Shown here: positions 1,058 to 55,396 of the stretch, one piece after another
How positions within the stretch are numbered: the stretch's first letter is position 1
Layout: the number at the start of each line of letters is the position of its first letter
DNA from: Macrocystis pyrifera
Lineage: Eukaryota; Sar; Phaeophyceae; Laminariales; Laminariaceae
Length of the DNA: 64,000 nt
Assembly (NCBI GenBank): GCA_031763025.1
Contig: JASSKH010000007.1
Span: 3,067,776 to 3,131,775 of the forward strand
Direction: 5' to 3'
Translations under genes and position numbers: made by a program
Notes under the pieces: generated by a model
What the model saw: only the letters and a program-made list of their open reading frames with translations
Databases searched by the model: none
What the model was told of the DNA's origin: nothing

Positions 1058-13064
<12,007 letters not shown>

Positions 13065-18549: not shown

Positions 18550-20840
18550 GTGCAATGAACGTGCCGTATGGAACCATGGCGTTGTCACGAGCGTGCCACG
18601 TGGCATCCCAAGAAACTGCATGGTGCCATGGAGTAGTCGTGAAAGTGCCGTTGCAGCCCGTGGCTTTCCATGGCAATCCTATCGCAGTGCCATGGGTAGT
18701 CTCGGGATAACATGGCAGCCTCATAGCAGGGCCATGACAGCCTCACGATAGTCCCATGGCGTCACATGGAAGTCCAATGCCCCATGACAGTGTGATGAAG
18801 TCTTACGCCATCCATGGCAAGTCCCCATGGCTGTACCATACAGTCATGGCAGTGCCATGATACTACGGTAGTCTCATGGCATCCCATGGCTCTGTGCCAT
18901 CGCATCCCGTGACAGCCCATCGCTGTGCCATCAAGTCACGACAGTCCAATGGCGATCCCACGAAGCCCTGGCAGTCCCATGGCATCCCATGGCATCTCAT
19001 CGCAGAACCAAAACAGTCGCATGACAGCCCCATCGCAGTGACACGAAACCGCGGCAGTCCCGTGGCAGTCCCAATGCGGCCCCGTGACAGTACTATGGGC
19101 CCATGGCAGTCCCATGGCAGTGCCATGAAGCCATGGTCGTGCCATGGTGTTCTATGGTAGTCCCACGGCCATGGCCGTCCCACAGTATTACGGGGGGCCA
19201 TAGTAAATAGGACCCACGGTACACACAAAAACCTATATATTTTCCTATTTTCACTACCAATATTTGGTCCTATTTACTATGGTATACCGTAATAGTCCAC
19301 GGCAGTACTTTTGAAGCCAATGACAATCCCATGGCTGTGTAAATAAGCCATAGAAGTCCCGTAGTATCGCATGGCGGTCCTACATCATTGCCATGAGACC
19401 ATGACAGTCCCATATCATCACGTGAGTGTCCACGGCAGTGCCATGACAACGGCATGAAGTCACCACAGGCCCATGCCAGTCCTACGAAAGCCATGGTAGT
19501 CGCGTGGCAGTCCCGTTGTATCCCACGGCCTCCCACGGCGGTCCCATAACAGTCCTGAAACATCCCATGTCAGTGCCATGAAGCCACGACAGCCCCACGC
19601 CATCCCATAACAGTCCCATGGCGGTTCCATGGCAGTGCTATCGACCCATGGCAATCCCATGGCAGTCCCATAGCAGTGCCGTGAAGGCTATGGCAGCCTC
19701 ACCATATTCCATGGAACTCCCATGACAGTGCCATGGTGTCCCATGGCGCAGGTGCCCCCCCCCCCCCTGCACAATGTAGGCGTAAAGAAATCCTCGCGGA
19801 GACACTGAATAATGTAGCACATCATTTGGCGTACAATTGAGAGGTTGCCGATACCTTGTGGGGTTTGGTACATAGTTCAGTATCTCACACAAATATTGTT
19901 TTACGCCTTCGTTGTGTAAGAGGGGGGTCCTGGCCATCTGTGATGGCAGCCCCACGGCAGTACCATGGAGCCATGGCAGCCCCATTACTGTGCCGTGAAA
20001 CCATGGCAACCTCCTTGCATCGCATTGCCTCCCATGGCCTCCCATGACAGCCCCATGGTAGTCCCATGACAGTCCCATGGCATCGCATCACGGTCCCATG
20101 GCAGTGCCATGGATCCATGACAGTAATGGCATGTCTCAGTCCGCCCCTGGTATCCCTTGGTATCCCATGGCAGTCCCATGGCAGTCCCATGGCAGTCACA
20201 TAGCAGTCTCATGGCAGTCCTGCGGCATACCATGGCAGTCAGTCTCTTGAAGCCATGTCAGTCTCACGGCATTCCAGGACAATCTATGGCATTCCTACGG
20301 CACCCACGGCAGTACCGTGAAGCCATGGCAGTCCCATGACATTCCATGGCGGTCCCATGGCATTCCTATGGCAGTCCCAGGGCATGTTTTGGCAGTCCCG
20401 TTGCAGTCCCATGGCAGTGCTATGACAATCCCATGACAGCCATGGCCTCCCACGGTAGTTACGTGTTGGCATCCCATGATGTCCCATGACAGTCCCATGG
20501 CGGTCCCATGGTAGCCTCTTGGCATGCCATGGCAGTCCCATGACATCCCACGGCAAACCCTTGATTCCATGTCAGTCACTTGGCATCCCATGGCAGTCCA
20601 TGGCAGTCCATAGCAGTCCATGGCAGTCTCACGGCAGCCCACGGCAGTCCCATGGTCTTCCCAGTTCCATGGTCGTCCCCTGAAGCCATGACATCCCACT
20701 GCATCCCATGGGTGGGCATAACAGTCCCATGGCAGTCCCATGAAGTCACGACAGCCCCATGTAAGTTCCATCAACGTGAGAAAACCTCCGTGGACATTCA
20801 TGGTGGTGTGCGAGTCCCATGACGGTTCCATTGAAGCATC
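18550..20840. repeat. 2.3-kb degenerate 11-bp CATGG-rich array
   Basis: Dominated by TCCCATGGCAG and variants (GCCATGAAGC, CCCATGACAG). Spacing is about 10-11 bp, with many substitutions and single-base slips. It is interrupted by the MITE at 19186-19294 and by about 170 bp of unrelated sequence at 19755-19925. Long frames rich in Gly-Leu-Pro-Trp-Asp or Ser-His-Gly are products of the repeat, not genes. Confidence 0.9.
19186..19294. mobile_element. 110-bp palindromic MITE inside the CATGG array
   Basis: TATTACGGGGGGCCATAG ... CTATGGTATACCGTAATA. The surrounding array resumes on both sides, so it is a later insertion. Confidence 0.8.
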
Positions 20841-22049: not shown

Positions 22050-23500
22050 ACCACCCACGGTGGATGCGCGGCGAAGCCTGCTTAGCTGTGCCTCGTCCTC
22101 GCACTTCCTCCCCATAAACCGTCCGGCTGTTTCGAGGACCTCCCAGTAGCACTTCCTCCCTCGCCTTTTTTGCTGCAGTGGACCACAGCGCGGTCTCAAC
22201 TCCAAACACCAAGCGGGAAAGTTCCGTTGACCCTTCGGTGGCTCGGAATTCCCTAAGGTCTTCGACTATGCATCTATGCTAAGTCTTAAACTGTCCACCA
22301 GGGCTCGGATTCTCCCTACCAGCCATCGTCCCGAACATTAAACGACTGGGTAATCGCTCCTTGCGTTGCCGTGCCACGCCCCCTGCAAAGAAGAGCCGCC
22401 GTTTACGGATGGTCGTTTCGATGCTCTCGCAACGTGTCATCTTGAGGGCCTTCGCATACGAGAGGGTGGTCTGGTCAGTACAAAGTCGGCCCTGGAAGCC
22501 AATGATTCGCAAAAGAACTTGGTAGTGAGCCGTTCGAAGCTTGGCAAAGTATTCCGCTCTGAGGGTCCACGTCACGCACCCGTACAGCAGGGTCTCAATC
22601 ACCCCGGCCTTCAGCATTCGAACTTTCAGGCTAAGGGGGGCGGTGGTCCTATCATACAGCTCCGGGCCGAAACAGTTTGAGGCATGCTCGCATGAGACGG
22701 ATCCGTCCGTCGATTTCGAGGGAGAGGTCAACGTTTTCGTGGATAATGCCGGGCCGTCTGTTTATCCCTCTGGTCTGCTGCTTCGATGACGAGCGGTGGT
22801 GCGAGGGTGTCTGGTTTGGTATTCGTATAAGCACTTTTTCAGTCTTCTTTTCCGATACCGTGACGCCTGCTGCTTCGAAGACAGTCACGATGACTGACAT
22901 CATTTTCGCGAGCCCTTCAACCGACTTCCAGACAATCCCTGCGTCATCGGCGTACAACATGCCCCATACAGCCCTTCGCACTCACGCCAACGACTCCTGC
23001 TCCTCCGTTCCGACTACTCCAGCATCACTGAGTTGGACCAAATCCCTTGCGACGGCTTCGTCATGGCTGAAGCGTACTAGTACTACGTGCAACGCAGCAG
23101 CGAAGAATACGTTGAACAGTAACGGTGAAAACACGCAGCCTTGCGGCAGCCCCTGCGCGACATCAAACCATTCCGAAGGCTCGCCGTCATCCGTACGCAC
23201 GCGAGCTCGCATGCTTTCGTGGAAATTACGGATAAGCATCTTGATTTGGTACGCCAAAGCGTGTGAGTACCTCCCGTAGCAGCTCTCGGTCGACAGAGTC
23301 GTACGCTTTCTGCGGGGCGAATCGAAGGACGCCGATGACAGCAACAACACAGTGAGGGTGGGGGGGGGGTTGTTTTTGTTTTGGACAACCCAAAATCCCA
23401 CAGTTTCGATTGCAGATTGGACCTGCCGTGCTGCAACCAAACGCTGGCTGGAGCCATACCGGCCGTTTCAACCCAGCAGTGCTGACAGCATTCACCCGGT
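22050..23500 (-). mobile_element. LINE, reverse-transcriptase half and C-terminus
   Basis: Minus-strand remnant carrying the part missing from the copy at 10.2 kb. In order: [40 protein letters not shown] (RT motif), YADDAGIVWKSVEG (catalytic YADD) and a thumb or C-terminal region with LLYGCVTWTLRAEYFAKL. A conserved tail follows (FGTMAGRENPSPGGQ, REFRATEGSTELSRLVFG, then FGVETALWSTAAKK). Several frameshifts make it inactive. Its 3' end merges with a duplicated C-rich stretch at 21950-22060. The composition is what I expect for brown-algal LINEs, from memory only. Confidence 0.85.
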
Positions 23501-24663
23501 TCGGAATGCATAGCTTCCTGGATCTCGTACCGTAACATCATATTGTTTCAGTTTGTTTCGTAATCGAAGGCCTCGCGTTGTTATAGTATCTGCATCATTA
23601 CTATTGTACGTGCCAGTTATCGACGACCGAAGTCTTCTTATATGTCTCCCTCGTAAGAATAGTTGTTGCAAAACAACTACTAATAAACTGATTGATGTCT
23701 AGTACTAATATTGTTATTGTTGCGATTGCCATCCGACGATGTACAGCATGAGCTTCAACGTTGCCATTGACCACTCGTCATAAGTATTCCTCGAAAATTA
23801 AAAACAAAAATCATTACTAAAAACCTAGCGTTCAAAACCAACTCCGCGGGTGGGTGTGGAAACCTTTCCCGGGTTTGCCGGATTGTAAGACAGCAGCGGC
23901 GGGCGAGATACTTGCTAGGGCAAGAGGAGACAGCACCCAACCGACCCTCTTATTCGAGGCGCTTTATTGGCAGCTTACACTGGGTTGGAGTTCCTCTTGA
24001 GCAGAGGGATCCTCCACCGCCAACATACCCGTCGTTGAGGATACCCCCTACATACGCTACCCCCACCCATACCAGTATTCCATAGCCAGCCCTGGAAATG
24101 ACGGCCTCCTCATCATGAAATTATACTACAGTGATTTTACCTGGCTCATATAACATATACATACCGGTATCTGGTACCTGGTACCTGGTAAAATCAAGTG
24201 ACGATGTCGACACTTACTACTTGCACTCCTTGGGTTATGCCGTGACGGAGGCACCATACCTATCCAACCTCTGGCCCATTCCTCCCTTTTCGTCTTCTCA
24301 TCGGGGACGGCGCCGAAATCACGCACAGTAAGCACCAATGTTGTTCATATCTTTGGGCGGCCGGCGGGTAAATTGAGTTCAAAGAGGCGGTATTTTTTAG
24401 TATATGGTGGTTGGTGGTATCCACAAATAAGTATACAAAAATCATGAAACGGCCGACAATAAAAGTACACCCTAGGGTATAGTCGTAGCAGGTACTACTA
24501 TTAATACGAGTATTATTATTAAGAATAGTGCAGGGCACGGTAGCTCGGTACCAACCATGGTAGCTGCGTAGCTCCAGACTACCAGCTCAGAACGACAGGC
24601 ACGTAGACGTTGTAGCACCACACGTTCATGAATGTCTCCTCGTGCGTGTGTTTACTCCTGCAG

Positions 24664-27600
24664 GCACCCACTGTGGGGTGGAACTGGCTTCTGCGTAGCT
24701 GATGGGGTTGCTGGTTCAGCTTTCGATGCCCAAGAGACGTGTTCGTGTGACGACGGCTTCGCCTCACGAGACTCGTTCGGCAACCCGAGCTGCGTACGGT
24801 CGACGGTTATCATGTACTGCTACATAACGATCGCTGCTGCAGGGGCGGCGTTAACGATACTGCTTGCCTGGCACTTTCAGCAACATCGGCGTCTACCGAG
24901 ACAGGCCCGGATCACACGGAGATCTGGGATACGCTTGAGATTTATGGCGTCTGCGAGGTGCGTGAGCGCGTACATTTTCACTCTCCTTGTACGTACATAC
25001 GAAGAAATCCTCACAGGGAATCGCCTTGTTTGCACATAAGTAAGGCAGGTGTACGCGTACTTCGTACCCGGTACCCGCCGCCAGAATAGTCCTGAACTGT
25101 CCTCGAGTTCCACAGGGGAACTCTGCATAATATTACTGGCCCACGCCAGGTATCTTTCGTTTTACACAAGCGACCCGCATTCCTATATGTTTATTAATGT
25201 TAATAGTCGACACCTTTAATTACTGCTGTACGTACAACGAAACTGATCCCAGTCATACTCCAAGCACATTTGTAGCTTGTCCACATTACATGGGCTGTCA
25301 TTGTTGTCGTTTACAGCAGTAGTAGTGCTGCTGTTGATGTTGCGGATGTTGTTGTCGTTGGTGCTGTTGCTGGTGCTGATGGTGTCGTGGTTGCTGTTGT
25401 CGTTGAGGTGTGTAAACCCTTTCCGTTTGACGCTCCTCTTGGCTTTGGTCAGTGCTTTTGCCACTTGCAACACACTCCTGTTCTCAATAGCAGCGACTGG
25501 AAAGGGAGCGGTAGCTCTCACCGATAGTGGAGTACACCAGGCGTTCTACACCGCGTCACTTCCGATGGCGTACGCCGTCAGCGTGACGTACGTGGAACTT
25601 TGGGTAGATTATCTCCCGGCTCAGGTGAGGTGTGTGCGTGGGGGAGGAGGTTATTGGATACCAGTACCAGTTGTACTGTGCCAGGTATCTTCTACTACAG
25701 CTATGGAGCCGTCTTTGATGTCTGGTTAACTGTTCGTACACTGTCTCTCACCGTGTCCTCGGCAGTTCGTACACCGTCTGGACTGTTCGCGCACCGTCTG
25801 AACTGTTCATACGCCGTCTCGACTGGTCATTGTCCACACGCATTTTCAACTAATCATACACACCGTTTCGACTGTTCATACACCGTCTCGACTGCTCATT
25901 CGCCGTTTCGATGCTGATATACTGTCTCGACTACTCACATACCGTGCCGACTGTTTACACACCGTTCGTTTCGACTACACGTCGTCTTGACTGTTCATCC
26001 TCCGCCTCGGTGTTCATTCACCGTCTCGATTGTTTATAAATAAATATACCTGTGATCCTCAGCCTTATCCGATTCGTTTCGGGTCGGCGGATCTCTGCCG
26101 CCTCTGACCGTCTTTCCGCGCGGTTTCTTCACCGGGGCGTTCCACCTCCACGCCTGAACCGTCCGGCGTCGGAGCATTCGCCCGCTCAGCGCCGTGGCGC
26201 CCGCGCGAAGCCTTGGCGTTGAGATCTACGAAGGAATCTCCGAAAATCCTTGCCCTGTCAGCGTTTTGGGCCATGGTCTCTCGACAGAGTGATTGCATTC
26301 GCATGGTTCTTTCCACCACGTCCTCTCCGACCTCCGACCCATGGGGAGAGCCACCTACCCGGCCGGCGTCGCCATTGTGGGGGCCTGCGCAGGTGGCTGC
26401 ATCTGGGACATCGATGGAACGCCCCGATAGCACATGCCACCCAGGCTTAGTTGAGAACTGCTATCCATATGCAGGGCCTAAAAGTGGACTAAAAATGGTA
26501 CGTAACGGGATATATGAGAGATCTCGCGTGTCACCTACAGCCAGCAGCACTTATAACGATAGTGTGTACGCTATCGAACAGCAGCAGCTGCAGCGCAGCT
26601 GTATACTACGTGACTGCATAGATGTACAGCTAGCTGCAGCAGGACTGCCACAGCAGCTGCTGTGACGGCACCTTTCTACGGAGCTGCGCTGTCGGCCGTC
26701 GGGTACTCCCTGAGTTAGAAGTTGGAAGTTACACCACCTTCCAGGATGCCGCCGCTTTTCGGTTAATCGGCAAGTAATCGTCAGCATTCTGCTGCCTTTT
26801 TGAAACTTCATAGAGTGTGGAGCGCACGCTCTCAGTCTCCTGGCATCGAGTCTCAGTCTTTCCACATTTTACGCCCATCACGCAAGTCTGCGACCGGCGG
26901 CCGTTCAGGTCGCCGGCGTTGCCCCTTGTACATACCAGGTACCAGGTATATATTTTGAACTGTTCATACGCCGTTTCGACGGTCTATGCACCGCCTCAAC
27001 TGTTCATACACCGTCTCGATGTTTTACACGCCGTCTCGACTCTTCATACACCGTCTCAACTTCTGATACATCGTCCCGACTATTCATAACGCCGTCCCGG
27101 CTGTTCATTCGCCGTCTCGATTGCTCGCACGCCGCCTCAACTGTTCAAACGCCGTCAAACTGCCCAAACACCGTCCCGAGTGGTCTTGCATACCTGGTAC
27201 GCCGTCTCGACTGTTCTTGCACGCCAGGTACACAGTCTCGACTGTTAATACACCGACTCGACTGTCCATATACCTGTTTCGACCGTTCATATATGTTTAT
27301 ACAACTTCTCGACTGTTCACACACCGTCTGAACTTGCCCACCACCGTCTCCACTGCTCATATATACACCGCCTATCGATTGTTCATACGCCGAGAATCGA
27401 TAGTTCATACACTGTCCAGACTGTTCACGCACCATTTTGACCGTTGGCAACATGTTGGTCCACTGTCTCAACTGCTCACGCACCGTCTAAATGCCCCAAA
27501 CACTGTCTTGAATGTTCATGTATACACCGCGCGACTGTTCATACACCGAATCGACCGTTCGTACACCGTCCAGACTGTTACCATATATACCGTCTCCTGA

Positions 27601-29127
27601 ACGTTTCGGGCACCTAACCGACAGTTCATCCATACACCCCCCCGACTATTCATACACCGTCGCCCCAGCTGCTGCCTTCGGGGTGCTTTGCGGTCAAGCT
27701 CAAACGTTTCGCCGAAGAGCAAGCCCTCTTCGTCCGATTAGGATTCGTGGGGTTCCTGTCCCTCGTGTTGATCGGCTCTATGACTTTCATCTTCGATTCT
27801 GTGGCGGTCGCTAGACTGATAAATTTGATGGGATCGGGAATCTCGACGTCCGTGGTGAGTACGAAAGGGGGGGCATGGGCAAGAGTGGGGGAAACGCGCA
27901 GATTTTGGCGGAAATGAGGGAGGAAGTGATGGGGCAAAGAGGACGAGGTGGTGCAGCCGACGAATAGTCCTGGACGAACGTTCGCGATAGCTTCTGCGCG
28001 CTCTCATACCATACCATTAACTCCAAAATGTTGATGACAACGCATATTTTTATACACGTCCCTGGTGCACCGTTTAATTGATATTAAAAGCTGCAAATGT
28101 AAACTATGTTCAAACAGAGTCGTGCTGACCCGCCTCAAACGTGGCATCGTCCTTCGCGTAGGGCTGCAGGATTGCCGAAGTTATCAATCCACCTCTTTCT
28201 TTTCAAGCGCCCGCACAATGTTCCCTGCCCCTTGCCCCCCCCACCCGTTGCTTCGCGCGTACGATGCCGGCAGGGTTTAGGCTTCTGCTTCGTCGCTGTG
28301 CACCTCACGTTGACGATCAATCATGCAATGGCAAAGGTAACAAGAAACACGGGCTACAAGTAACGATCCTCATGTACGTCGAAGGCATACAGTGGGGGGT
28401 TTGCCACACAGTGCAGGTTGAAGCACATCTTGCAGCTGTGTCTCTCCCTATTGGTCCAAACGAGACATTTTGTCTAGGACAGAGAAAATGCCGCCAGCCC
28501 CACGAACGGGTTAAAAAACGATCTTCTCGCTGACAATATTTTTCGGGGAGAGGAGGGCATACACTCGAGCTATTGATGCGATCCAACGCGTTGCTCGCCC
28601 AATGCGGTGCTGACCAACTTGCTGTGTTCGTGCATATATTTAACAGCACAGGAGTTTAGAAATAGATCACTTCGACTTCGCGACAATTTTTGATCGCAAA
28701 CCCCCTGGAAACAGCACCGAAATAGTGACATGCTTTCCGCTGACTACAATACCAAAATCAGTGGTTTGTATTTTCTATGCTATCTCTGTGCCGGCTTGAC
28801 AGGGATCGCAAACTGCGAGATCACTGTATGAGAAAGCAAGGAGAAGGCTGTGGGCGCAAGTGGTGGCGTTGTTAATTGTTGGCTACACGTTCGTGAGCTC
28901 GATGGCGGTTTTAGAGCTGACGCAGGCGGGGCAACGAACCCCCATAGTTCCCTTTTCGATCATGGTGAGACAGACACCACCCTCCCGATCGGTATATGTA
29001 TATCCCGCAGTCAGTAGTTAAGCTAGAGAGCGCCTGTCCGGACGGGACGTTGTTTGCTTATTAGGCCACGCTGGCTGTTTCGTGGTATGCGTCGCTAATA
29101 GGCCCCGCGCTGCCAGCCCGTAAATAA
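24664..29127 (+). CDS. EGF-like domain plus seven-transmembrane protein, six exons, 5' end missing
   Basis: Putative receptor-like plasma-membrane protein; family not recognised. Exons are 24664-24957, 25408-25624, 27669-27854, 28274-28336, 28803-28964 and 29065-29127 (stop TAA). Junction phases are 2, 0, 0, 0, 0, and each border has GT and AG. Joined, they give about 327 residues. Residues 10-43 are an EGF-like module with cysteines 10, 26, 28 and 43 (ETCSCDDGF). Hydrophobic segments follow at about 47-70, 104-127, 141-163, 190-213, 230-248, 271-292 and 302-321, with basic loops such as EKARRRLW. The acceptor at 25407 is the weakest; an alternative at 25316 is out of phase with exon 1. The signal peptide and first exons are not found. 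A phase-compatible upstream exon could end at 24327, but its content is unconvincing. Intron 2 holds two minisatellite blocks and an antisense open frame. Confidence 0.8.
25740..26045. repeat. 20-22 bp minisatellite, first block, in EGF/7TM intron 2
   Basis: Degenerate units around CACCGTCTCGACTGTTCATA. The second block at 26955 has the same unit, so one array was probably split by insertion. Confidence 0.85.
26955..27660. repeat. 20-22 bp minisatellite, second block
   Basis: The same CACCGTCTCGACTGTTCATA unit. It ends a few bases before the acceptor of exon 3 (27668), so the array forms that exon's upstream intron sequence. Confidence 0.85.
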
Positions 29128-48848: not shown

Positions 48849-49956
48849 ACAAGGCACTTCGCTCCGCGGGCGGCCTACGCCGCCCGCCACGCTCGCTCAG
48901 GAAGGAAAAGTACATCGAATCATGCGCAGCGGACAGAGGTGCATGATTGAATATAGCTTTTTATGATTGTAGCTGCAAACTGGCGGCTTGATGTTGTCAA
49001 GAGTCCCGCCGCCATGTGTCAGGGAAAAACAGCTCGGACGCCACATACGTCCGCCCGCTACGCTCGCTGACATGCCGCACGTACGTAAATACCCCAGGCA
49101 GTCCTTTTCTTCTTTTGATATGATTGCTGTATGTACGAAAGAGAAAGCACAGCACGGCACAGCAACACCGCAAAAACAATGAAAATGAAACCGAAAATTT
49201 GGGAAAGAGAAAAAAAATCCCCGTCCCCTCATGTGATAAGTTTCTGACACCTTGCACCGGTCAAAAAAGAGAAAAACCGAACAACAGGGCTTCTCTCTCA
49301 GCCTCATACGCCGCCCGCCCCTCTCGCGACCACCTCGCCACTAATTCGGCCCGGGAAAAGCTTTCCTCACTGTCTGCCACAGTCAGCCCCGTCGCCCGCC
49401 TCGCGTAAAGCCCGGTGCTCACCGTGGCCGTCGTTCGCCAGCTCGACAATGTTGGTGCGTAGCCCTCTCTTTGAACTTCAGCCCGGTCGCAAAAATAAGC
49501 ACCGCTTGAATCTTATCTTGCAATCCCGAACGATCCTTCCTTATAAACTCGTACATACTGCACTCTATCCAAAACCACGAATAAATGGAGGCCAGACAGA
49601 GCCCATTCATGCTTCCTTCGTGTCTCGAGGCACACTCAATGCCTAGTTACGAAAACGGCGACCGCGCTCCTTGCAACCCCTCCTCTACCAGCCACCACCC
49701 GCTGACACCCGCGACGGCGCCGGGCCCGCCCGCGGTGCCGTGCTCCTAGTACATGTACGCACACGAATCGAAAGAAGAAAAAAGGAAAAAAGGACTGAAA
49801 GTGCCAAGAGGAATGGAGAAAACAAAGAACCGCTGGAAAGGTCCGGCAAGTAATAAAAGGAGGCGATTCCCAAGTGGGAGCTCTGAGAGGCCAGGGATGT
49901 ACCAACCGAGCACGCTCAGAGTCGAGATCTAAGTAAGTAGTTCTATGTATGTATGT
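48849..49956. repeat. 1.17-kb macrosatellite, unit 1 (diverged)
   Basis: 1108 bp. Starts ACAAGGCACTTCGCTCCGCG. Carries the GC hairpin in altered form. In this unit the minus-strand conserved frame (49449-49261) is joined differently by a one-base indel, and it lacks the GTAAGA donor-like end seen in units 2-5. Confidence 0.9.
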
Positions 49957-51128
49957 ACAAGGCGCTTCGCTCCGCGGGCGGCCTACGCCGCCCGCTACGC
50001 TCGCTCAGGAAGGAAGCATCAAATTATGCGAAGCTGACAGAGGTCCATGATTGTTTTGTTTTTTTTATGGCCCCTGTAGTTAGCTGCGAACTGGCGACTT
50101 GATAATGCCAAGAGTCTTGCCGCCATGCTCCAGGAGAAAACAGCTCGGACGCCATATATGCTTCGCGTCGCGGGCGGTTTTCCGCTACTCTCGCTCACAC
50201 GTCGTACATACGTACATACCCCAGGGAGGGCACTTATTTTCTTCTTTCGATATGCTCTGTGTCTGTGTACTCGTATGTACGAAAGATAAAGCACAGAACG
50301 ACACAGCAGCAACACAGCAAAAACAATGAAAATGAAACCGAAATTTTCTAAAAGAAATAAAATCCCCGTCCCCTTTCGTGTAATAATTTACTACTTGAGT
50401 GGAACACCTTACACCAGTCAAAAAAAGAACAAAATGAATCAAAAGAAAAAATCTTACAGCAGAGCTTCTCTCACAGCCTCGTACACCGCCCGCCCCTCTC
50501 GCGACCATCTCGCCACCGATTCAGTCCGGGTAAAGCTTCCCTCCCTCTCTTCCACAGTGAGCCCCGTCGCCCGCCTCGCGTGAAGCCCGGTGCTCACCGT
50601 GGACCTCGACGCAAGCTCGACAATGTTGGTGCTCATTCGGGGTACCTCCCTCTTGTGACTCTCAGCCCGGTCGCAAAAATAAGCACCGCTTGAATATTAT
50701 CTTACAATCCCGAACGACCCTTAAACACTCGTACATACTCTATCCAATGTCACAAATGGAGGCCAGACAGAGCCTATTGATGCATCCCTCGTGTCTCGAG
50801 GCACACGCGACGCCTAGGCACGAAGGCGGCGACCGCGCTCCTTGCAACTCCCCCTCTACTCGCCAGCATCCGCTGACACCCGCGACGGTGCCGGGTTCGC
50901 CCGCGCAACCGTGCTCGGAGTACACGCACGCACACGAAACGAAAGAAGAAAAAATGAAAGAAGGACTGAAAGTACGACGAGAAATGGAGAAAACAAAGAC
51001 TCGCTGGAACGGTCCGGCAAGTAATAAACGGAGGCGATTCCCAAGTGGGAGCTCTGAGAGGCCAGGGATGTACCAACCGAGCACGCTCAGAGATCGAGAT
51101 CTAAGTAGGTATATCTATGAATGTATGT
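49957..51128. repeat. 1.17-kb macrosatellite, unit 2
   Basis: 1172 bp. Starts ACAAGGCGCTTCGCTCCGCG with the perfect hairpin GCGGGCGGC-CTAC-GCCGCCCGC. A minus-strand 60-codon frame at 50636-50454 (VARWSREGRAVYEAVREAL) ends at a GTAAGA donor-like site. Confidence 0.92.
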
Positions 51129-52312
51129 ACAAGGCGCTTCGCTCCGCGGGCGGCCTACGCCGCCCGCTACGCTCGCTCAGGAAGGAAACATCAAATTATG
51201 CGAAGCGGACAGAGGTCCATGATTGAATATTGTTTTTTTTATGGCCCCTGTAGTTAGCTGCGAACTGGCGACTTGATAATGCCAAGAGCCTTGCCGCCAT
51301 GCTCCAGGAGAAAACAGCTCGGACGCCACATATGCTTCGCGTCGCGGGCGGTTTTCCGCTACGCTCGCTCACACGTCGTACATACGTACATACCCCAGGT
51401 AGGGCACTTATTTTCTTCTTTCGATATGCTCTGTGTCTGTGTACTCGTCGTATGTACGAAAGATAAAGCACAGAACGGCACAGCAACTAGACAGCAACAC
51501 AGCAAAAACAATGGAAAGGAAACCGAACATTTCTAAAAGAAACAAAATCCCCGTCGCCTTTCGTGTGACTACCTGAGTGGAACACCTTACACCAGCCAAA
51601 AAAAGAACAAAATGAATAAAAAAAGAAAAACTCTTACAGCAGAGCTTCTCTCACAGCCTCGTACGCCGCCCGCCCCTCTCGCGACCATCTCGCCACCGAT
51701 TCAGTCCGGGTAAAGCTTCCCTCCCTCTCTTCCACAGTGAGTCCCGTCGCCCGCCTCGCGTGAAGCCCGGTGCTCACCGTGGACCTCGACACAAGCTCGA
51801 CAATGTTGGTGCTCATTCGGGGTACCTCCCTCTTGTGACTCTCATCCCGGTCGCAAAAATAAGCACCGCTTGAATATTATCTTACAATCCCGAACGACCC
51901 TTAAACACTCGTACGTACTCTATCCAAAATCACAAATGGAGGCCAGACAGAGCCTATTGATGCATCCCTCGTGTCTCGAGGCACACGCGACGCCTAGGCA
52001 CGAAAGCGGCGACCGCGCTCCTTGCAACTCCCCCTCTACTCGCCAGCATCCGCTGACACTCGTGACGGTGCCGGGTTCGCCCGCGCAACCGTGCTCGGAG
52101 TACACGCACGCACACGAAACGAAAGAAGAAAAAAGGAAAGAAGGACTGAAAGTACGACGCGAAATAAATGGAGAAAACAAAGAACCGCTGGAACGGTCCG
52201 GCAAGTAATAAACGGAGGCGATTCCCAAGTGGGAGCTCTGAGAGGCCAGGGATGTACCAACCGAGCACGCTCAGAGATCGAGATCTAAGTAGGTATATCT
52301 ATGAATGTATGT
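51129..52312. repeat. 1.17-kb macrosatellite, unit 3
   Basis: 1184 bp, same layout. A small insertion (CAACTAGACAG) lies near 51484 and the CTAAAGAAAT-type tract differs. The conserved minus frame is at 51816-51634. Confidence 0.92.
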
Positions 52313-53480
52313 ACAAGGCGCTTCGCTCCGCGGGCGGCCTACGCCGCCCGCTACGCTCGCTCAGGAAGGAAACATCAAATTATGCGAAGCGGACAGAGGT
52401 CCATGATTGAATATTGTTTTTTTTTTATGGCCCCTGTAGTTAGCTGCGAACTGGCGACTTGATAATGCCAAGAGCCTTGCCGCCATGCTCCAGGAGAAAA
52501 CAGCTCGGACGCCACATATGCTTCGCGTCGCGGGCGGTTTTCCGCTACTCTCGCTCACACGTCGTACATACGTACATACCCCAGGGAGGGCACTTATTTT
52601 CTTCTTTCGATATGCTCTGTGTCTGTGTACTCGTCGTATGTACGAAAGATAAAGCACAGAACGGCACAGCAACACAGCAAAAGCAATGAAAATGAAACCG
52701 AACATTTCTAAAAGAAACAAAATCCCCGTCCCCTTTCGTGTAATAATTTACTACGTGAGTGGAACACCTTACACCAGCCAAAAAAAGAACAAAATGAAAA
52801 AAAAAGAAAAAATCTTACAGCAGAGCTTCTCTCTCAGCCTCGTACGCCGCCCGCCCCTCTCGCCACCATCTCGCCACCGATTCAGTCCGGGTAAAGCTTC
52901 CCTCCCTCTCTTCCACAGTGAGCCCCGTCGCCCGCCTCGCGTGAAGCCCGGTGCTCACCGTGGACCTCGACGCCAGCTCGACAATGTTGGTGCTCATTCG
53001 GGGTACCTCCCTCTTAATTGTGACTCTCAGCCAGGTCGCGAAATAAGCAGCGCTTGAATATTATCTTACAATCCCGAACGGCCCTTAAATACTCGTACGT
53101 ACTCTATCCAAAATCACAAATGGAGGCCAGACAGAGCCTATTGATGCATCCCTCGTGTCTCGAGGCACACGCGACGCCTAGGCACGAAAGCGGCGACCGC
53201 GCTCCTTGCAACTCCCCCTCTACTCGCCAGCATCCGCTGACACCCGCGACGGTGCCGGGTTCGCCCGCGCAACCGTGCTCGGAGTACACGCACGCACACG
53301 AAACGAAAGAAGAAAAAATGAAAGAAGGACTGAAAGTACGACGAGAAATGGAGAAAACAAAGACTCGCTGGAACGGTCCGGCAAGTAATAAACGGAGGCG
53401 ATTCCCAAGTGGGAGCTCTGAGAGGCCAGGGATGTACCAACCGAGCACGCTCAGAGATTGAGATCTAAGTAAGTATATCT
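52313..53480. repeat. 1.17-kb macrosatellite, unit 4
   Basis: 1168 bp, same layout; conserved minus frame at 52997-52815 with Ser-to-Trp and Val-to-Glu changes. Confidence 0.92.
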
Positions 53481-53950
53481 ACAAGGCGCTTCGCTCCGCG
53501 GGCGGCCTACGCCGCCCGCTACGCTCGCTCAGGAAGGAAATATCAAATTATGCGAAGCGGACAGAGGTCCATGACTGAATAGTGTTTTTTTTATGGCCGC
53601 TGTAGTTAGCTGCAAACTGGCGACTTGATAATGCCAAGAGTCTTGCCGCCATGCTTCAGGAGAAAACAGCTCGGACGCCATATATGCTTCGCGTCGCGGG
53701 CGGTTTTCCGCTACTCTCGCTCACACGTCGTACATACGTACATACCCTAGGTAGGGTACTTATTTTCTTCTTTCGATATGCTCTGTGTCTGTGTACTCGT
53801 CGTATGTACGAAAGATAAAGCACAGAACGGCACAGCAACACAGCAAAAACAACAACAACGAAAATGAAACCGAAATTTTCTAAAAGAAATAAAACCCCCG
53901 TCCCCTTTCGTGTAATAATTTACTACTTGAGTGGAACACCTTACACCAGC

Positions 53951-53986
<36 letters not shown>

Positions 53987-54644
53987 AAAATCTTACAGCA
54001 GAGCTTCTCTCACAGCCTCGTACGCCGCCCGCCCCTCTCGCGACCATCTCGCCACCGATTCAGTCCGGGTAAAGCTTCCCTCCCTCTCTTCCACAGTGAG
54101 TCCCGTCGCCCGCCTCGCGTGAAGCCCGGTGCTCACCGTGGACCTCGACGCAAGCTCGACAATGTTGGTGCTCATTCGGGGTACCTCCCTCTTGTGACTC
54201 TCAGCCAGGTCGCGAAAATAAGCACCGCTTGAATATTATCTTACAATCCCGAACGACCCTTAACCGTACGTACTCTATCCAAAATCACGAATGGAGGCCA
54301 GACAGAGCCTATTGATGCATCCCTCGTGTCTCGAGGCACACGCGACGCCTAGGCACGAAAGCGGCGACCGCGCTCCTTGCAACTCCCCCTCTACTCGCCA
54401 GCATCCGCTGACACCCGCGACGGTGCCGGGTTCGCCCGCGCAACCGTGCTCGGAGTACACGCACGCACACGAAACGAAAGAAGAAAAAATGAAAGAAGGA
54501 CTGAAAGTACGACGAGAAATGGAGAAAACAAAGACTCGCTGGAACGGTCCGGCAAGTAATAAACGGAGGCGATTCCCAAGTGGGAGCTCTGAGAGGCCAG
54601 GGATGTACCAACCGAGCACGCTCAGAGATCGAGATCTAAGTAAG

Positions 54645-54646: not shown

Positions 54647-54676
<30 letters not shown>

Positions 54677-55366
54677 TGTATGTATGTATGTATGTATGTA
54701 TGTATGTATGTATGTATGTATGTATGTATGTATGTATGTATGTATGTATGTATGTATGTATGTATGTATGTATGTATGTATGTATGTATGTATGTATGTA
54801 TGTATGTATGTATGTATGTATGTATGTATGTATGTATGTATGTATGTATGTATGTATGTATGTATGTATGTATGTATGTATGTATGTATGTATGTATGTA
54901 TGTATGTATGTATGTATGTATGTATGTATGTATGTATGTATGTATGTATGTATGTATGTATGTATGTATGTATGTATGTATGTATGTATGTATGTATGTA
55001 TGTATGTATGTATGTATGTATGTATGTATGTATGTATGTATGTATGTATGTATGTATGTATGTATGTATGTATGTATGTATGTATGTATGTATGTATGTA
55101 TGTATGTATGTATGTATGTATGTATGTATGTATGTATGTATGTATGTATGTATGTATGTATGTATGTATGTATGTATGTATGTATGTATGTATGTATGTA
55201 TGTATGTATGTATGTATGTATGTATGTATGTATGTATGTATGTATGTATGTATGTATGTATGTATGTATGTATGTATGTATGTATGTATGTATGTATGTA
55301 TGTATGTATGTATGTATGTATGTATGTATGTATGTATGTATGTATGTATGTATGTATGTATGTATG

Positions 55367-55396
<30 letters not shown>
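54647..55396. repeat. 750-bp uninterrupted TATG microsatellite
   Basis: About 187 perfect TATG copies with no interruption seen. The 368-, 311- and 252-codon frames reading Met-Tyr-Val-Cys through it are repeat artefacts. Confidence 0.97.

Follow-up and report, generated by a model that had tools for sequence, protein, structure and literature searches.

We found that a chain of six exons on the forward strand of a 64,000-base stretch of giant kelp (Macrocystis pyrifera) DNA, called the window below (C221:3067776-3131775), has homologues elsewhere in this genome: four other clusters carry related exons, and in the same order. Judged from these sequences, the chain up to exon 5 belongs to a small multigene family of the giant kelp. 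The best reading of the window gene (hereafter W), to which we give a probability of roughly 0.6, is that of a six-exon, protein-coding gene whose product is a receptor-type protein with one EGF-like module and seven transmembrane segments (EGF-7TM). W is known here from genomic sequence alone, and the paralog comparison is confined to M. pyrifera (537,376,219 bases in 223 contigs). A preliminary description had proposed six phase-matched exons encoding an EGF-like end module and exactly seven hydrophobic segments, and had called for a search for paralogs in brown-algal DNA; these were found in the four clusters just mentioned.

A genome search with the spliced W protein listed 27 matches at E ≤ 10; six of these are W itself, and the remaining 21 fall in the four clusters (seven on C205, nine on C212, three on C132 and two on C192), each of at most about 55 kb. 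Nine of these 21 listed matches have E < 0.001. With the reversed protein as a control, two matches appeared, both on different contigs (best E 0.10), and the four clusters had none. Because the paralog matches cluster while the control has none there, the exon chain is more than a product of chance. The search scores the best candidates only, so that the family is possibly larger than the matches listed. The exon for the EGF-like module is present in seven copies by the protein search together with a DNA pattern for the peptide HPLWGG. This pattern occurs at 12 sites, seven of them in family members; the other five were discarded as non-family after inspection of their sequence. Besides W, we named the copies C205m, C205p, C212a, C212b, C132 and C192, and a partial copy C205m2; a further partial copy lies at C212:479323, and partial copies are also present at C205. 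C205p is apparently damaged, with a frame break in exon 5 and a probable insertion in exon 1, and the exon-2 donor of C205m2 is no longer GT. The five corrected proteins compared here, also for hydropathy (W, C205m, C212a, C212b and C132), align with few gaps through exon 5 once exon 2 is corrected as explained below, with 46 invariant columns of 362 and with W 36-38% identical to the other four. Conservation is highest in the EGF-like exon (93.8% between C212a and C212b). The region C205:2020000-2077413 is an inverted cluster: it holds two family genes on opposite strands, pointing apart, with remnants between them (exons 2 and 3 on the minus strand, exon 5 on the plus strand, and exon-6-like open reading frames).

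Codon-level constraint in the aligned exons may also be counted in favour of a real protein-coding family. The ratio of nonsynonymous to synonymous substitution rates (dN/dS) is 0.36 between C205m and C205p (167 codons; exons 1, 3 and 4) and 0.68 for the tandem pair C212a and C212b (288 codons). Between W and C212a it is 0.15 in exon 1, 0.45 in exon 3, 0.30 in exon 4 and 0.33 in exon 5, values that are rough since dS is 1.7-2.2, near saturation; the exon-2 value of 0.66 was discarded, as it had been computed with the uncorrected exon-2 boundary.

As first described, the six exons were joined by GT..AG junctions into one open frame of 327 residues up to a TAA. The open frame and the splice dinucleotides stand, but the proposed starts at 24664 and 25408 are probably wrong, and the last exon is without direct paralog support. 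We recovered the paralog exons by splice-aware alignment of the W protein to the paralog DNA, and these match the predicted junctions 25624/27669, 27854/28274 and 28336/28803 as well as the donors 24957 and 28964. Exon 1 (probably 24632..24957) encodes the EGF-like module (residues 6-54), the first transmembrane segment (TM1) and a basic loop, and its donor lies 17 nt past an IRLR-type motif in all seven copies. Exon 2 (25453..25624, 172 bp) encodes TM2 and TM3. Its acceptor is probably at 25453 and not, as in the proposed junction 24957/25408, at 25408: an in-phase acceptor for a 172-base exon is present in C205m, C205p, C212a, C212b, C132 and W, and also in the partial copy C205m2. Several copies have one or two alternative in-phase AG sites, and 172 was chosen as the common length. 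Since a 172-bp exon 2 is common to these copies, the 45 additional bases (15 residues) from 25408 are probably intron, and the residue spanning the first junction is a serine in all five proteins when the corrected exon is used. Intron 2 (25625..27668) contains a degenerate minisatellite of about 20 bp (ACTGTTCATACACCGTCTCG) in two tracts at 25765-27568, flanking about 900 bases of other sequence. Exon 3 (27669..27854) encodes an LLP motif, a basic loop and TM4, and is 186 bp long in six copies (W, C205m, C205p, C212a, C212b and C192) but 183 bp in C132. For exon 4 (28274..28336), which encodes TM5, the length is 63 bp in W, C205m, C205p, C212a, C212b and C132; it was not found in C192. Five of the six other copies conform to a series of 172, 186 and 63 bases or of 172, 183 and 63 bases. 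Exon 5 (28803..28964, 162 bp) encodes a basic loop with Y-E-K-A-[RK]-[RK], TM6 and the start of TM7, and has homologues in C205m, C212a, C212b and C132; its donor has counterparts in C212a and C212b and stands at the same position in C205m.

Exon 6 (29065..29127, 63 bp including the TAA) would encode the rest of TM7 and the tail PARK, and is the least certain of the exons. With the proposed junction 28964/29065, the exon fits in frame, splice sites and hydropathy, but it has no direct paralog match. Among seven candidate last exons in the 2.5 kb downstream, it ranks fifth by hydrophobicity. Candidate last exons with longer tails occur in C205m, C205p and C132; C212a and C212b yielded none. As exon 6 is uncertain, the second half of TM7 and the tail are uncertain as well.

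At the other end of the gene, translation probably starts at the ATG at 24632, as read from the sequence of the copies, and exon 1 probably does not begin behind an acceptor at 24663. In W, a TGA stop directly precedes this in-frame ATG, and the 33 bases that end with the first base of the originally proposed exon read ATG...C-V-Y-S-C-R in frame; with this start, the set of six cysteines is complete. Alternatively, W as described might be just the C-terminal portion of a bigger receptor, with a true acceptor at 24663 and one or more upstream exons for a signal peptide and more ectodomain. Several observations point that way: TGCAG followed by G or A is found at the 24663 site in all seven copies, while AGA and AGG make up only 34% of the Arg codons in the family exons; C132 lacks both an in-frame ATG there and the first cysteine; and the six changes between C205m and C205p from the ATG to the CR residues are distributed as 3, 2 and 1 over codon positions 1, 2 and 3, which is not coding-like. 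A loose six-cysteine pattern just upstream of C205p (2061267-2061422) was discarded as chance. Against an acceptor, C-V-[YF]-x-C-R reads through in all seven copies (with Gly for the first Cys in C132), seven of the ten differences that separate W from C212a in the same stretch fall at third codon positions, and a G at -17 and -15 in 7/7 copies and an A at -11 in 6/7 are bases unexpected in a pyrimidine tract. An in-frame ATG is found no more than 11 codons upstream of HPLWGG in six of the seven copies, one to five codons before the first cysteine. Both W and C192 have a stop directly before the ATG and no AG between the ATG and the first cysteine, and the DNA alignment of W with C212 begins exactly at the ATG base 24632. 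Farther upstream, only about 580 exon-adjacent bases align between C212a and C212b in 10 kb; C205m and C205p have nine short matches over about 8.5 kb, which we took to be repeats. No LNR or Ephrin_rec_like match lies near any family copy (0 of 87 and 0 of 30 matches listed, respectively). A pattern scan of the DNA examined returned no credible upstream module, although its EGF pattern (C2-C3 of at most nine residues) would miss the family's own spacing; EGF- or Ephrin-type pattern matches elsewhere in the scan were discarded as chance, being long runs of C or not common to the copies. We thus regard upstream exons as unlikely, and a further ectodomain hidden beyond the part first described finds no support, given the in-frame stop before the ATG and the lack of a listed LNR or Ephrin_rec_like match nearby.

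The module at the N-terminus of W has the cysteine pattern C1-x3-C2-x10-C3-x15-C4-x-C5-x14-C6 (residues 6-54). C2 to C6 are conserved in all seven copies and C1 in six, and the C-x-C-x2-G-[FY] core is of EGF-like type. The six-cysteine pattern agrees with the single extracellular-type EGF-like end module of the preliminary description, with no EGF profile match in W, and the module is EGF-like by cysteine pattern only. The spacing of 10 between C2 and C3 is long compared with the usual EGF spacing. Searched against Pfam, the W module matched no family at E ≤ 10, while that of C212b gave EGF_Teneurin (0.046), EGF (0.2), EGF_2 (0.42) and hEGF (2.7), all short of the cut-off and all outscored by the unrelated SLR1-BP (E 0.026). 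An AlphaFold model of exon 1 had a confidence score (pLDDT) of 66.6, too weak for a fold comparison.

The corrected W protein has 323 residues and no stop or frame break. Seven passes with the N-terminus outside, a layout of the G-protein-coupled receptor (GPCR) type, are predicted from its hydropathy and charge. In a 19-residue window, the hydropathy peaks are at residues 59-77 (2.04), 104-122 (1.40), 142-160 (1.06), 190-208 (2.22), 219-237 (1.67), 269-287 (1.98) and 297-315 (1.72). The earlier count of exactly seven segments is therefore obtained at a cut of 1.0, but falls to five at 1.6. C205m also has seven peaks; in C212a, C212b and C132, whose models stop before the last exon, the first six recur in corresponding positions. 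A composition-preserving shuffle of the uncorrected model yielded at least seven peaks in 533 of 1000 trials. Since shuffling gives seven peaks so often, the peak count by itself is no evidence, and it is the conservation and the charge pattern that carry weight. Lysine and arginine together number 8, 4 and 6 in the W loops after TM1, TM3 and TM5, and 1, 1 and 1 in those after TM2, TM4 and TM6; this concentration of basic residues predicts an outside N-terminus. The highest hydropathy within residues 1-40 is 0.85, so that no signal peptide is evident by this measure.

Several results weigh against a receptor-type EGF-7TM product. No known receptor family is significant in Pfam for the five family proteins, and no PDB chain matched the family profile at E ≤ 10. 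The class-A GPCR motifs DRY, CWxP and NPxxY and the TM3-loop disulphide were not seen in W by eye. AlphaFold2 folded the module alone with low confidence (pLDDT 52.4) and only two short strands. Two of the seven W peaks, the second and third, are weak and do not reach 1.6. The cytoplasmic tail of W is very short. Finally, dN/dS between C212a and C212b is 1.09 in exon 3 and 1.23 in exon 4.

The main rival to the receptor is a membrane protein of another kind (channel, transporter, scramblase or enzyme) that belongs to a new family and happens to have an EGF-like cap. Such a protein would explain why neither a GPCR family match nor the classical motifs were seen. The five family proteins have no significant Pfam match, but nine families each have a match to a single member, with E values between 0.02 and 0.9, and these include membrane or transport families: IspA (0.021), Pho88 (0.14), TMEM128 (0.16), TMEM18 (0.55), Frag1 (0.55) and Lig_chan (0.87). 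These matches are, however, non-significant, vary from member to member and sit beside the irrelevant Cas6 and PWWP, while an extracellular module followed by seven N-out passes with basic inside loops is the layout of a receptor; we hold a non-receptor to be a serious but rather improbable candidate. It is very unlikely that W comes from a formerly functional family and is itself decaying or silent. The damage in C205p, the lost donor in C205m2 and the short, unsupported last exon of W would suit such decay, but W is intact over its 323 codons despite a dS of about 2 to C212a, and its splice sites are all GT..AG. That the chain is a chance series of open hydrophobic segments, as the seven-peak shuffles would allow from a hydrophobic composition alone, is practically negligible given homologous exons of the same order, lengths and phases elsewhere and a reversed control without matches at those loci. 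The reading of W as a receptor-type EGF-7TM gene is the one that we carry forward. Viral origin was rejected on a scan of viral contigs with the single peptide pattern CRHPLWGG, which matched one stretch and no relative and is weak evidence; no PHROG family was matched at E ≤ 0.1.

If the layout is a guide, W would have a putative receptor function. TM1 might act as a reverse signal-anchor that places the N-terminus outside, because no hydrophobic stretch precedes it. The EGF-like module, at the cell surface or wall, could bind to something in the wall or matrix, to a partner protein or to a diffusible cue, and such binding may shift the seven-helix bundle and pass a signal to the inside. This signalling would most plausibly run through heterotrimeric G proteins, and G-alpha matches are found at six loci in the giant-kelp genome. 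The divergence of the copies would fit receptors that serve recognition and differ in their ligands. As a tentative extension, which we think possible though more probably wrong than right, brown algae may have independently evolved compact EGF-7TM receptors that are tandemly duplicated, diverge fast and use G-protein signalling in cell-cell, gamete or wall recognition. Complex multicellularity arose separately in the brown algae, about whose cell-surface receptors little is known; from the W family a few candidates can be drawn for recognition between cells, at the wall or between gametes. If the receptor reading is true, the EGF-7TM layout can arise without a GAIN domain.

The rest of the window contains repeats and gene fragments. 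Upstream of the gene, at 19053-20747, lies a long degenerate minisatellite of about 11/21 bp (TCCCATGGCAG), and a similar array is present in the C205 cluster. The minus strand carries the beginning of a gene for a eukaryotic aspartyl protease at 12326-12769 (Pfam Asp, E 4.6e-9, residues 96-125), a reverse-transcriptase remnant at 22982-23464 (RVT_1, E 5e-5, short of the cut-off) and, at 22279-22758, an open reading frame with no Pfam match that by eye resembles a reverse-transcriptase flank. A tandem repeat of roughly 1.2 kb extends from about 48900 to 54500, with similar open reading frames at 50561, 51741, 53024 and 54264 and a more distant one at 49248, and a TATG microsatellite of 187.5 copies with 100% matches occupies 54647-55396.

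Among known systems, the layout of W is closest to that of the animal adhesion GPCRs of the ADGRE or EGF-7TM type, with which the preliminary description had compared it: both have extracellular EGF-like sequence, one or more modules in the animal proteins, followed by seven passes with the N-terminus outside (as predicted for W). Unlike them, W has a single atypical six-cysteine module and no hydrophobic N-terminal stretch, and a Pfam search of the five family proteins gave no match to 7tm_2, GPS or GAIN at E ≤ 1, in keeping with the earlier remark that no GAIN domain is recognisable in the visible part. Membership in the adhesion GPCRs was thus rejected, and the tie to them is an analogy of layout only. 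The retinal-binding lysine of rhodopsins sits in TM7; no lysine was found in TM7 of W, a segment that depends on the uncertain exon 6. According to one study, the link between GAIN and 7TM domains is restricted to holozoans (PMC12716839).

Brown algae themselves provide two further comparisons. LNR (Notch-domain) proteins form a family in the giant kelp, with 87 matches listed at E ≤ 10 on C126, C194, C211, C192, C223 and other contigs, several of them in open frames of more than 1000 codons. LNR transmembrane proteins of Ectocarpus, reportedly linked to the etoile mutant, are said to combine a cysteine-rich extracellular module with membrane segments. W would share this combination, but none of the 87 listed matches is near a family locus and no LNR pattern occurs in the scanned DNA, and an LNR transmembrane identity was rejected, as was that of an Ephrin_rec_like receptor, for which none of the 30 matches listed adjoins the family. 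A Notch-domain gene is reported to be down in etoile (PMC3879662), and a putative transmembrane receptor is placed in the brown-algal sex-determining region (PMC12592211); our literature search returned no title on an algal EGF-7TM protein. The second comparison is with the GPCR-like proteins of Ectocarpus gametes, which can be likened to W by description only, and for which the available part of the source reports no EGF-like module (PMC3879662). They are putative brown-algal 7TM receptors, as W would be, and the several GPCR-like genes of the gametes are accompanied by six G-alpha paralogs, beside the six G-alpha loci found here in the giant kelp (PMC3879662).

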